Shown here one piece after another: positions 16,404 through 20,078 of a DNA stretch of 64,000 nt (position 1 is the first letter of the stretch; each line of letters opens with the position of its first letter). The translations under genes and the position numbers were made by a program. A model generated the notes under the pieces. It did not search any database. It was not told where the DNA came from and saw only the letters and a program-made list of their open reading frames with translations. Source of the stretch: Ereboglobus sp. PH5-10 (GTDB taxonomy: Bacteria > Verrucomicrobiota > Verrucomicrobiia > Opitutales > Opitutaceae); assembly GCF_029504735.1 (NCBI RefSeq), contig NZ_JAQFIP010000014.1, positions 1 through 64,000 of the forward strand, read 5' to 3'.

Positions 16404-17852
16404 ATGGCCAAATCCACAAAAACCGCCCGCCCGTCCCAACAAGCCACCTGGGGCGGCCGCTTCACGTCCGGCCCCGCCGAGCTCATGCTCGCGTTTAGCG
16501 AATCCGTCTCGTTCGACCGCCGCCTCGCGCCGTTCGACATCGCCGGCAGCAAGGCCCACTCCGCCATGCTCGCGCACACCGGCATCATCACCGCCGCGGA
16601 ACGCGATGCCATCCACGCCGGCCTCGACGCCATCCTCGCGGAAATCGACGCGGGCAAATTCATGTGGGACGTGAAACTTGAGGACGTGCACATGAACATC
16701 GAGCAGGCGCTCACCCGCCGCGTGCCCGCCGCCGCCAAGCTCCACACCGCGCGCAGCCGCAACGACCAGGTCGCCACCGACATGCGCCTCTACCTCAAGC
16801 ACGCCTGCGCGCAACTCTCCGAAAAAATCGCCGCCGCCCAGCGCGCCATCCTCGCCGCCGCCGCCGCGCACGCCGACGTGCTCGTCCCCGGCTACACGCA
16901 CCTCCAGCGCGCGCAGCCCGTTTATCTCGCGCACCATCTTTTCGCGTGGCTCGAAATGCTCCAGCGCGACCGCGCGCGCCTCGCCGAGACCGCCGCGCGC
17001 GCCAACTGGTGCCCGCTCGGCTCCGGCGCCATCGCCGGCACCACGCTCCCCATCGACCGCGAGTTCACCGCGAAACAACTCGGCTTCGTCGATGCGCGCG
17101 GCCGCCCACAAGTCACGCAAAACAGCATGGACACCGTCGCCGACCGCGACCTGTTCATCGAGTTCGCGCACGCCTGCGCGCTCTTCGGCGTGCACATCTC
17201 GCGCATCGCCGAGGACTTGATTCTCTGGTCGAGCGCGGAGTTTAAATTCGTGGAATTGCCCGACGCGTTTTGCACCGGCTCCTCGCTTATGCCGCAGAAA
17301 AAAAATCCCGACTCGTGCGAACTTCTCCGCGGCAAATCCGCGCGCCTGCAAGGCAACCTCCACACGCTCCTCACGCTCGCGAAGGGCCTGCCGCTCACCT
17401 ACAACCGCGACCTCCAGGAGGACAAGCCGCCGCTCTTCGACAGCCACGACCAAACCGCGATCTGCGCCGACGTGCTCGCGGGCACCTTCACCGGCCTCAA
17501 GATGAATCGCGACAAATGCGCCGCCGCCGTGGCCGACCCCGCGCTGCTCGCCACCGATCTCGCGGATTATCTCGTCGAGCGCGGCGTGCCGTTCCGCGAG
17601 GCGCACCACGCCGTCGGCGCGGTCGTGCGCGCGGCGGAGACGCTCAATGTTCCGCTCAACGAAATCCCCCTCGCGGAAATTCAAAAAATCCATCCCGCCT
17701 ACGCAAAGGACTGGACGCAAGTCTTCGACCTCAAGCGCGCCATGCAAAAACGCCGCGGCACCGGCATGCCCGGCCCGCAACAAATCAAAAAACAATTCGC
17801 GCGCTGGAAAAAGCTAATCGCGGAAACGCGGAAGGGCGGAAATGCGGAATGA
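16404..17852 (+). CDS. argH: Argininosuccinate lyase
   Basis: Cytoplasmic enzyme that splits argininosuccinate into arginine and fumarate, the last step of arginine synthesis. It is 482 residues long, close to the family's 460-470. It opens [23 protein letters not shown] and has the ArgH substrate-binding sentences [22 protein letters not shown] and [12 protein letters not shown]. The fumarase/aspartase superfamily signature [12 protein letters not shown] is at about residue 292, with the catalytic Ser in it. I chose the ATG at 16404. The last ~12 codons ([10 protein letters not shown]) are encoded by one arm of an inverted repeat and do not look native. The stop overlaps the start of the next gene by 4 bp. 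Confidence 0.97.
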
Positions 17853-18251
17853 ATTTAATAGAACAAGACTTGAGTGACCGCGTGTTGAATGCGGCCATCG
17901 AGGTGCATCGAGCACTCGGTCCCGGATTTCTCGAAAAGATATACGAAACCGCCCTGACGCATGAACTCACCAAACGCGGCCACAAGGTGGAGCGCCAAAA
18001 GACCGTCACAATTGTCTATGACGGCCAAATCCTCGGCGAGCATCGGCTCGATCTCATCATTGATGGCCGCATCATTCTTGAGCTCAAGGCCTGCAAAGCC
18101 ATCGAAGACATCCACCTGGCCACGGCCCGTTCCTATCTGAAAGCCACGGGATGCAAACTTGCCCTCGTCCTCAACTTCGCCGAAGCGCGGCTGGCAATAA
18201 AACGCGTCGTTCTTGACTCCGAGCCTTCCGCCCTTCCGCGCTTCCGCGATT
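17816..18251. repeat. 26-bp inverted repeats bracketing the GxxExxY gene
   Basis: The left arm at 17816-17841 and the right arm at 18226-18251 are reverse complements at 25 of 26 positions (only 17826 differs). Both are built from the word gcggaa. The left arm lies in the 3' end of argH and the right arm in the 3' end of the GxxExxY gene, ending 6 bp before the mutL ATG. The 384 bp between them hold essentially only the GxxExxY gene. Confidence 0.8.
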
Positions 18252-18253
18252 AA
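17849..18253 (+). CDS. GxxExxY family protein
   Basis: A 134-residue protein with the family-defining sentence [17 protein letters not shown] (G-x-x-E-x-x-Y) after a short helix ([17 protein letters not shown]). It continues with [34 protein letters not shown] and [15 protein letters not shown], which have the D...ExK spacing of a PD-(D/E)xK nuclease core (D in LDLIID, E-L-K in ILELKA). A nuclease-like function is inferred; no activity is established for the family to my knowledge. The ATG at 17849 overlaps the argH stop (ATGA). The last residues ([11 protein letters not shown]) come from the right inverted-repeat arm. The bracketing repeats suggest this gene arrived as a unit. Confidence 0.85.
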
Positions 18254-18257
18254 GAAA

Positions 18258-20078
18258 ATGTCCTCGAAAATCAAAATCCTTCCCGACCGCGTGGCGAACC
18301 AGATCGCCGCGGGGGAGGTCATTGAGCGGCCCGCGGCGGTCGTGAAGGAGCTCGTGGAAAACGCGCTCGACGCCGGGGCCACGCGGCTCGAGGTCGAGTT
18401 TCGCCACGGCGGACGCTCGCTCATGCGCATCGAGGACAACGGCGCGGGCATGTCGCGCGACGACGCGCTGCTCGCGCTCGAACGCCACGCCACGAGCAAA
18501 ATCGCCGCCGCCGCCGACCTCGACTCGCTCTCCAGCTTCGGGTTTCGCGGCGAGGCGCTGCCGTCAATCGCCAGCGTATCCGAATTTTCAATACAAACGC
18601 GCGAGGCCTCGTCCGACACCGGCACCGAGGTTTTTGTCAACGGCGGCAAACTCGTCCACGTGCGCGAATGCGGCCGCGCCGTCGGCACGCGCATCGAGGT
18701 CAAGCACCTCTTCAACTCCGTGCCCGCGCGGCGCAAGTTTTTGAAAAGCGACGCCACCGAGTCCGCGCACATCATCCAGGGCGTGCGGCTCTACGCGCTG
18801 GCGTTTCCGCATGTCGCGTTCACGTTGATCGAGGACGGGCGCGTCATTTTTCGCTCGCCCCAATGCGAGACGCTCCGCGAGCGCGTCGCCGGCATTTTTG
18901 GAAAACAAATCGCCGAGAACCTGATCCCCATCGACGCCGCCGAGGGCGGCATGCGCATCAGCGGACTGATCGACCGGCCCGGCTCCGGCATGGGACGCGC
19001 GACGCGGCACGAGATGATCACGTATATCAACCGGCGTCCGGTGGACAGCCGCGCGCTCAACTACGCGCTCATTGAAAGCTACACGGAGCACCTGCCGAAG
19101 GGCCGGTATCCGGTGGCGTTTGTTTTTTTCGAGATCGATCCGGCGGCGGTCGATGTGAATGTGCACCCGGCAAAACGCGAAGTGCGCTTTCGCAACGAAA
19201 CCGCCGTGCGCGGTTTTGTGATTCGCAACGTGCTTGATGCGTTGCGCAACGCGCAAGGCGGATTGGGCGGATCGAGTGGCACGGGCGATCCGCCCGTGGG
19301 CTTGGGAGGCATGGCCGGGACGGCCGCGCAAACACCGCCGACGTTTGCGCCGACTCCGCGAGTCACGCCGCAGGTTCAAACACATGGGCGAGTCGCCCAT
19401 GCCACCCAACCCATTCAATCCGCCGGACACACGGGCGGGTCGCCCGTGCCACCCAACCCACCCGAACCGCGGCCAATCGAAAATCGGAAATCGGAAATCG
19501 GAAATTCCACCTGGCGGTTTCTCGGGCTCGCGCACCAGGCTTACGCGCTTTTTGAGATGTCCGCCGGGATCGTCGTGCTCGACCGTCGCTCGGCGCACGA
19601 ACGCATCTGGTTCGAACGGCTGCAAACGCAATTCCGCTCGGGCGAAGTTCCGAGCCAGCGCCTGCTGCTTCCCATCCCCATCGAACTCGACGCCATCGCC
19701 AGCGCGCTGCTGCTCGACCGGCTGGATTTTTTCAATCACCACGGTTTTGAAATCACCGAGTTCGGGCGCAATTTTTTCCGTGTGGAGAGCGTGCCCGTCT
19801 GGATGGAGCCGGCGGACGCCGAGCCGTTTGTGCGCGACCTGCTCGGCGCGTTGCGCGACGGACGCTTGCAGGAAAAAAACATCGACCTCGCGCGCGACGA
19901 GTTGGCGCGGCTCGCCGTTGTGAAGGCGATCCGCCTGCCCGCCTCGGCAAGCGAGGCCGAGATGCGCGCGATGATCGGCCAGCTCCTCGCCTGCAAGACC
20001 CCGCTCACCAGCCCCTCCGGACGCCCGACTTATTTCGAGTTGTCGCTAGGCGAACTCGCGCGACGGTTCGGAAGGTAG
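18258..20078 (+). CDS. mutL: DNA mismatch repair protein MutL
   Basis: A 606-residue mismatch-repair ATPase that couples MutS recognition to strand removal. GHKL motifs are clear: VVKELVENALDAGAT (residues 28-42), DNGAGM (60-65) and HATSKI...FGFRGEAL (77-101), followed by YINRRPVDS and the NVHPAKREVRF sentence. The C-terminal dimerisation domain is present. The endonuclease motif DQHAxxE reads D442-R-R-S-A-H-E and the zinc motif CPHGRP reads S585-P-S-G-R-P590, so the nicking site seems lost. The linker (about residues 331-418) is repeat-derived: three palindromes of one family plus aatcgg words. I chose the ATG at 18258, 4 bp after the GxxExxY stop. The TAG stop lies inside a REP palindrome. 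Confidence 0.95.
   Translation: MSSKIKILPDRVANQIAAGEVIERPAAVVKELVENALDAGATRLEVEFRHGGRSLMRIEDNGAGMSRDDALLALERHATSKIAAAADLDSLSSFGFRGEALPSIASVSEFSIQTREASSDTGTEVFVNGGKLVHVRECGRAVGTRIEVKHLFNSVPARRKFLKSDATESAHIIQGVRLYALAFPHVAFTLIEDGRVIFRSPQCETLRERVAGIFGKQIAENLIPIDAAEGGMRISGLIDRPGSGMGRATRHEMITYINRRPVDSRALNYALIESYTEHLPKGRYPVAFVFFEIDPAAVDVNVHPAKREVRFRNETAVRGFVIRNVLDALRNAQGGLGGSSGTGDPPVGLGGMAGTAAQTPPTFAPTPRVTPQVQTHGRVAHATQPIQSAGHTGGSPVPPNPPEPRPIENRKSEIGNSTWRFLGLAHQAYALFEMSAGIVVLDRRSAHERIWFERLQTQFRSGEVPSQRLLLPIPIELDAIASALLLDRLDFFNHHGFEITEFGRNFFRVESVPVWMEPADAEPFVRDLLGALRDGRLQEKNIDLARDELARLAVVKAIRLPASASEAEMRAMIGQLLACKTPLTSPSGRPTYFELSLGELARRFGR
19280..19507. repeat. Palindromic and word repeats inside the mutL linker
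   Basis: Three palindromes of one type, each an 8-bp stem around a 3-nt centre, lie at 19280-19298 (cacgggcg/cgcccgtg), 19383-19401 (catgggcg/cgcccatg) and 19430-19448 (cacgggcg/cgcccgtg). They are followed at 19477-19507 by a tandem of the word atcggaa. All are read in frame as linker. Confidence 0.75.

Follow-up and report, generated by a model that had tools for sequence, protein, structure and literature searches.

GxxExxY genes within inverted triple-iteron arms: a candidate repeat-spreading unit between argH and mutL of Ereboglobus

Introduction

In Ereboglobus sp. PH5-10 (Opitutaceae, Verrucomicrobiota), a small gene of the GxxExxY family lies between argH and mutL within a near-perfect inverted repeat that reaches into the neighboring reading frame, which raises the question of whether gene and repeat form a unit and, if so, of what kind. 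A preliminary description of the window (the whole stretch of 64,000 nucleotides analyzed here, from contig NZ_JAQFIP010000014.1, G000:C14) regarded the locus as a small mobile or domesticated cassette with its own boundaries, the protein possibly acting on the repeat. The host genome (G000) comprises 3.58 Mb in 45 contigs. On balance, we favor reading the cassette as a single representative of a unit with a wide distribution, in which a GxxExxY gene is enclosed by triple-iteron arms private to its lineage.

The cassette between argH and mutL

The whole unit measures ~436 bp, and its arms consist of direct GCGGAA iterons with an 8-nt period (Table 1). In the left arm these occupy positions 17820-17825, 17828-17833, and 17836-17841, with a fourth at 17844-17849 according to the iteron scan; in the right arm, TTCCGC iterons start at 18226, 18234, and 18242. 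The repeat search returned inverted arms of 27 nt, complementary at 26/27 positions (96%) and separated by 384 nt; the preliminary description, with arms at 17816-17841 and 18226-18251 matching at 25 of 26 bases, was correct and is extended by one further pair. Within the window, the arm pattern (at most three mismatches) is matched three times, with an overlap between two of these matches; shuffled sequence gives a mean of 0.02.

Table 1. Features of the argH–mutL region in the window.
Feature	Coordinates	Strand	Description	Basis
argH	16404..17852	+		Sequence; compared with relatives
Left arm	17815..17841	+	TAATC followed by three direct GCGGAA iterons	Repeat search and iteron scans
GxxExxY gene	17849..18253	+	134 aa, PD-(D/E)XK nuclease-like (predicted)	Profile searches, predicted structure
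Right arm	18226..18252	-	Inverted copy of the three iterons, ending in GATTA	
mutL	18258..20078	+		Sequence

The arms also write coding sequence, as had been proposed from the window itself: the final 11 residues of ArgH and its stop codon are encoded from the left arm onward, and the C-terminal residues of the GxxExxY protein by the right arm, with the mutL ATG (18258) 6 bp beyond that arm if its end is placed at 18251. The argH TGA (17850-17852) overlaps the GxxExxY start codon in a shared ATGA (17849-17852). Beyond its alignable part, ArgH extends by 11-17 residues at the three sites found to be filled (see below), compared with 2-8 residues in ten cassette-free genera.

The GxxExxY protein

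Profile searches with the 133 aa following the first Met place the protein in both GxxExxY (TIGR04256; E 3e-39, 133.9 bits, cut-off 35) and PDDEXK_3 (PF13366; E 4e-37, 127.6 bits, cut-off 22), with scores above the curated cut-offs; no family beyond these two was matched in the profile searches. A PDB sequence search with the protein returned no match, nor did the PADLOC defense library and PHROGs.

The core residues D68 and E78-x-K80, noted in the preliminary description as a D...ExK nuclease-like core, are present, and the catalytic D..[DE]xK is intact in 146/151 family members. The AlphaFold model (pLDDT 92, pTM 0.84) has as its nearest structural match SSO0001 (Foldseek E 4e-4; VIA Z 9.7, rmsd 3.5, 104 aligned), which we take to be a Cas4; LHK-Exo and a Cas4 score lower (VIA Z 6.5-6.6), and since the VIA matches listed other than SSO0001 all lie below Z 8, they suggest a nuclease fold and nothing finer. 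With its core motif in the right fold, the protein is predicted to be PD-(D/E)XK nuclease-like. The QxxxY motif is a mark of RecB/Cas4-type nucleases, and its presence in 136/151 members (Q92 in 140/151) is a further likeness to these enzymes; the window protein differs from them in standing alone at 134 aa and in having T92 where QxxxY has its Q.

Flanking inverted repeats across the family

The bracketed arrangement is not peculiar to argH–mutL; a large share of the GxxExxY family has it. TIGR04256 was identified in 39 of 57 genomes (own genome included). From the 168 GxxExxY copies in these 57 genomes, the 112 best-scoring loci were taken, excluding L035 (a duplicate of L002) and L047 (short flank), and the best inverted match between 220-bp flanks was scored, with windows shifted by 800 bp as controls. 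Scores of at least 16 were obtained at 86/112 loci, compared with 0/219 among the shifted windows and 11/555 among mismatched left-right pairs; the other 26 loci score below 16.

A second set, spanning phyla, was drawn from species genomes (the best 80 matches listed, plus viral contig L281) and included Chloroflexota, Acidobacteria, Proteobacteria, Planctomycetes, Bacteroidota, Cyanobacteria, archaea, and others. After removal of L232, L235, and L259 from these 81 loci (L201, a copy of L044, was included), and with 260-bp flanks and a control shift of 900 bp, 48/78 loci from bacterial phyla and archaea score at least 16, against 1/137 shifted windows. Mismatched left-right pairs also score high in this set (47/459), because the arms of many phyla have a ACCACAGAGACACAGAG-like consensus in common. 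Two archaeal loci were noticed in this set, one of Methanophagales (L274, score 17.5) and one of Methanothrix (L210, score 8.5). L201 comes from an Ereboglobus MAG, and a GxxExxY gene of genome G002 is 100% identical to it over 110 aa.

Chance, or ordinary terminators beside small genes, would be expected to give such scores in the controls as well; apart from the shifted windows, only 2/103 other small ORFs in both locus sets carry such an inverted repeat, and by eye these two are probably another GxxExxY gene and a four-helix-bundle IVP gene. We therefore regard this explanation as practically dismissed.

A mainly plasmid- or phage-borne element was considered and set aside, there being no sign of one: narrow peptide patterns identified a single viral contig (L281), and a single protein query eight plasmid records.

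Several loci depart from the simple arrangement. In the own genome (L004:1866-1957 and neighbors; G000:C27), a GxxExxY gene lies by eye in an apparent hsdM–hsdS type I restriction operon and has a hairpin of inverted iterons solely on its 3' side; locus L096 of the congeneric genome G001 is similar in appearance. Two GxxExxY matches lie ~70 bp apart at G007:C1:5003436-5004194, and two GxxExxY genes lie ~2.3 kb apart at G043:C92:8074-10736.

Arm anatomy and correspondence with protein lineage

Arms are mostly built of three direct iterons, each a hexamer followed by a spacer of 2-4 nt. In the automatic reading, exactly three iterons were counted in 102/152 left arms and 106/152 right arms, with a period of mostly 8-10 nt. 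Among the 109 elements with at least three iterons per arm, the first two spacings are identical and in the same order in both arms in 97 (shuffles: mean 18, maximum 30); where the left spacings are unequal, the order is kept in 37/45 elements and reversed in one.

The iteron varies among elements, agrees between the two arms of an element, and tracks protein lineage across genera. For 151 elements with an inverted-repeat score of at least 14 and a readable protein (L201 dropped), protein identity correlates with arm similarity (Mantel r 0.33; maximum of 300 permutations 0.14). The correlation persists in cross-genus comparisons of Opitutales elements (r 0.229, reached by 0/1000 permutations), and an exact hexamer is held in common with the nearest protein of another genus in 48/119 cases, where 10.2 would be expected. 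Arm similarity at 30-50% protein identity is almost the same within one genome as across genera (9.5 vs. 9.3 and 10.5 vs. 10.1), so the arms are not merely a host signature; at 50-60% identity it is 14.9 for same-genome vs. 11.7 for cross-genus pairs (8 pairs), and some host effect or host-wide homogenization of arms may contribute.

The T92 proteins illustrate the correspondence, all seven having by eye xGAA-type arms with an 8-nt period; under a strict xGAA rule the count is 6/7, compared with 2/140 Q92 proteins, although the group is one clade, with 3/7 from a single genus, and counts as few events. Comparison shows that gene and arms belong together and that arm sequence follows protein lineage across genera, which supports, indirectly, a connection of the protein with its repeat. 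Residue-to-base covariation, of protein columns with positions in the iteron, was also considered; it is dominated by clades and was discarded as evidence.

Gene-less arm pairs and dispersed copies

Arms also occur in pairs with no gene between them. In the 3.58-Mb genome, the window-type TTCCGC arm pattern is matched 26 times (reversed pattern: 0), some of the matches sharing one octamer with another, and nine gene-less inverted TTCCGC pairs were recognized by eye. Some of these miniature pairs (G000:C1:368869-369005, C1:373162-373530, C16:41499) have an internal stretch in common and are possibly a true miniature family. A second pattern, CACGGAG, likewise has 26 matches in this genome (reversed control: 2); its pairs comprise two around genes (L002, L003) and eight without, the latter with 3+3 or near-3+3 iterons, interiors of roughly 10-110 bp, and, by eye and without gene calling, apparently intergenic positions. 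The gene-less interiors are mostly unrelated, unlike those of ordinary MITE families. As single strands, six of seven miniature pairs fold beyond their shuffles under DNA parameters (z -4.4 to -9.7), and L329 reaches z -1.4; Rfam returned nothing above threshold for the miniature hairpins, with sub-threshold miRNA matches for L324 and L330.

Across the 57 genomes the general arm pattern has 1901 matches (reversed control: 1). Arm-like sites are found in 38/39 genomes with a GxxExxY gene (median 41) vs. 5/18 without (median 0, maximum 10), a contrast that in part follows phylogeny, 13 of the 18 gene-free genomes being from other families; within the family, the median is 47 in the 32 gene-bearing genomes and 2 in the five gene-free ones. 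Genomes with a GxxExxY but no IVP gene have 1, 37, 87, and 93 such sites, and those with an IVP but no GxxExxY gene 0, 1, and 2. One genome (G021) has a GxxExxY gene yet zero matches to the general pattern. Comparison of the genomes shows that gene-less arm pairs are dispersed where a GxxExxY gene is present. Widespread arms without a gene inside had been named in the preliminary description as speaking against a cassette, and gene-less pairs are indeed common; yet arms are plentiful only in GxxExxY-bearing genomes.

The many dispersed arms of most GxxExxY genomes, together with the nuclease fold and a private recognition sequence, would also be consistent with a selfish nuclease–immunity pair, in which the protein attacks DNA unless iterons titrate it or protect the site, so that arms accumulate as in an addiction module. 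A protective site would need no mirror-image 3+3 pairs around the gene, and the absence of a PADLOC match speaks, weakly, in the same direction; we consider this explanation improbable.

Other observations concern what the arms enclose and how they vary. In G055, triple-iteron arms surround two ORFs (124 aa and 182 aa) and a ~240-bp stretch, all without GxxExxY (L352, L353, L354), as if arms can enclose passengers; the interior is thus not always GxxExxY. A TTCCGTG variant of the arm family seen in the window has many copies in the congeneric genome G002 (L289-L311); some of these copies are nested with arms of another type, and several have TTTATAAA after them. The exact form of this iteron is in none of the six GxxExxY arms read in G002.

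Filled and empty sites in relatives

Among 30 mutL loci fetched, tblastn with the window ArgH and MutL as queries places argH beside mutL in 13. Three of these sites are filled (G000, G001, and G002); they belong to one genus, have the identical arm type, and have intergenic distances of 405-461 bp. The other ten junctions, in ten other genera, are without space for a GxxExxY gene: the gap is 12-22 bp in five genera (L148, L151, L156, L161, L164), 74-76 bp in L146 and L150, 130 bp in L149, and 226-244 bp in L153 and L154. At 17 of the 30 loci, among them that of the congeneric G003 (65% complete), argH was not found in the locus by tblastn. The tight junctions are true empty sites, of the kind that the preliminary description had suggested looking for, and comparison shows that the gene-bearing unit occupies argH–mutL in Ereboglobus and not in the other genera tested.

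By eye, the gaps of L149 and L150 contain heptamer-like repeats. An xGGAA-type arm sequence stands right before mutL, with no GxxExxY gene, in L154 (G007) and L153 (G004); in L154 such an arm also stands right after argH, with a CACAGAG-type inverted pair nested between. These arms in G004 and G007 imply either that the site was hit repeatedly or that an older unit lost its gene there, and they weaken the claim that argH–mutL was first filled in the window's genus. The cassette may thus be older than this genus, with the gene lost later elsewhere.

Elsewhere, the clearest change concerns L071 of G001. Compared with the empty site in G000, it has 711 unmatched bp bordered by a 14-bp direct repeat, and the element is also absent from G002 and G003. 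The extra DNA extends 15 and 88 bp past the outermost iterons, and the GxxExxY gene has a complete inverted pair on either side, as in a composite element. The L002 site is gene-bearing in G000, and the corresponding place in G002 is taken by a pair from this arm family with no gene inside; in G001 none of these flanks was found, only arm-sized matches (40/272 candidates scored). The L333 site has a miniature pair in G000 and G001 that is absent in G002 and G003, where the whole gap differs. The element at L324 is also in G001, and the remaining comparable TTCCGC and CACGGAG pairs occupy shared sites in G000 and G001, which implies that recent activity is low.

Exact arm-to-arm mobility was considered for the cassette and is not established; at L071, the only recent insertion inspected, the borders of the extra DNA lie beyond the arms. 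The TTCCGC pairs of the own genome were inspected by eye for target duplications, and none was noticed. The proposal of a unit with its own boundaries is supported, the site being filled in three genomes of one genus and the gene absent from ten other genera.

The sites shared by two genomes of one genus, with the apparently intergenic position and hairpin folding of most miniature pairs, would also fit arms that are useful to the host as terminators, mRNA stabilizers, or nucleoid or repair sites, with GxxExxY as a resident nuclease responsible for their maintenance, for instance through hairpin processing at replication forks, and moving nothing. Private, lineage-matched iterons are unlike housekeeping, as is a gene that is patchy even within one family (32/37 genomes), and unit-free sites exist; we hold this explanation to be unlikely.

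IVP genes and an RNA-level alternative

IVP-family genes (PF05635) of these genomes are bracketed as well. Flanking inverted tandem repeats were found at 20/28 loci, vs. 0/56 controls, the loci being 28 of the 30 best-scoring (L176 and L199 were too short). These IVP genes (L171-L200 in relatives, L181 in the own genome) are located outside rRNA, and their iterons, by eye mostly heptamers such as AGGAGTC, are of a class unlike that of the GxxExxY arms. IVP genes with iteron arms are thus apparently a second, parallel family with its own iteron class.

Intervening sequences of 23S rRNA offer a similar known design: that of Coxiella has 428 nt, a 28-bp terminal stem, and one small ORF (PMC4990558), and to this extent resembles the window unit in its size of ~430 nt, its ~28-bp terminal inverted repeat, and its single small ORF. 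The known element lies in rRNA and encodes S23p/IVP, whereas the window unit lies between argH and mutL and encodes PDDEXK_3.

The arms might accordingly pair in the transcript as a long stem that is processed by RNase III or by the encoded protein, making insertion into an operon harmless, with the protein as passenger or helper; the unit would then be an mRNA-borne cousin of the rRNA intervening sequence. Apart from the common design and the bracketed IVP genes, the position of the window unit between argH and mutL, where a stop and a start codon overlap, fits this explanation, as does the strong folding of miniature pairs (z < -4 in 6/7, with DNA parameters). The two arms agree at 94% of iteron positions, a figure flattered by the picking of iterons for agreement, vs. 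69% of spacer positions (adjoining spacers within one arm agree at 49%), which is beyond what a stem needs. Arm mismatches that fit G-U pairs favor the antisense strand (108 vs. 65 for sense), contrary to a sense RNA stem, although this asymmetry may merely reflect A-rich left arms. The fold predicted for the protein most resembles those of DNA nucleases, which is still compatible with RNA as a substrate. Taken together, we judge an RNA element of this kind to have a small chance of being the correct explanation.

Relation to known systems and proposed mechanism

REPtrons, in which a resident nuclease or transposase gene stands beside inverted repeats, are the nearest parallel. As with REP sequences, TnpA-REP/RAYT, and REPIN miniature pairs, inverted copies of one repeat stand on both sides of the GxxExxY gene, and further copies are scattered where no such gene lies between them; the arms are plentiful only in genomes with the gene, as REPs are with their resident transposase. 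REPtrons are described as having many gene-less repeat copies and a protein that has co-evolved with the repeat (PMC8266576). The differences lie in both components: an HuH tyrosine transposase in REPtrons, compared with a PD-(D/E)XK fold here; and self-palindromic REP stem-loops, compared with non-palindromic arms of about three direct iterons, in which a stem would form from left and right arm together.

Terminal inverted repeats are also present in insertion sequences and MITEs; their target duplications have no counterpart seen by eye at the TTCCGC pairs, and the 14-bp direct repeat at L071 lies outside the arms. Short tandem units dispersed in intergenic DNA are known from cyanobacteria as STRR. 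In Beggiatoaceae, TAACTGA heptamers are described as short tandem units dispersed intergenically, in direct orientation with one inverted case (PMC4679880), and that account does not present them as inverted pairs around a gene, unlike the GxxExxY arms.

The preliminary description knew of no mobility system of this kind, and this agrees with the open-licence literature searched: no description was found of GxxExxY arms, function, or gene–repeat association (an earlier account elsewhere is possible), nor was the association found among accounts of dispersed repeats in Verrucomicrobia. Mentions of GxxExxY found in this literature place it beside a reverse transcriptase gene and in a gene list. 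Open-licence searches for CACAGAG/CACGGAG-type arm sequences, and for a four-helix bundle protein with an intervening sequence and inverted repeat, found nothing.

The reading that we lean toward is a REPtron-like unit whose nuclease and repeat design are both unrelated to those of REPtrons, and in which movement of the repeat would be driven by the protein; the unit is known from sequence, and cleavage and strand transfer are proposed by likeness. The GxxExxY protein would recognize its own iterons, probably those of both arms at once, or the arm hairpin in single-stranded DNA, and may cut there. Repair or joining would then copy or move full units and, in trans, gene-less miniature pairs into intergenic sites. 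A Cas4-like predicted PD-(D/E)XK nuclease would thus stand in for the HuH transposase, and triple-iteron arms for the REP palindromes.

More tentatively, and with somewhat less confidence than we place in the unit itself, GxxExxY proteins might be an undescribed class of repeat-mobilizing enzymes in bacteria and archaea: minimal Cas4-like PD-(D/E)XK proteins with a triple-iteron code of their own in each lineage, which spread themselves and at least 100 arm copies in some genomes, and which could explain a large part of the dispersed repeats of CACAGAG/CACGGAG type.

Implications

That this arrangement recurs in very different bacteria suggests a type of repeat-spreading unit that has so far gone undescribed. 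For the common GxxExxY family no described job was found, and its private, readable repeat code makes its function directly testable with one protein and one oligonucleotide pair, the other lineages serving as ready negative controls. A second case, in parallel to this one, is suggested by the IVP genes and the iteron arms peculiar to them. If GxxExxY proteins do move repeats, this would be a new chemistry for the spread of dispersed repeats, parallel to that of REPtrons, and would account for hairpins between genes in phyla that range from Verrucomicrobiota and Planctomycetes to Chloroflexota, Acidobacteria, and Proteobacteria.
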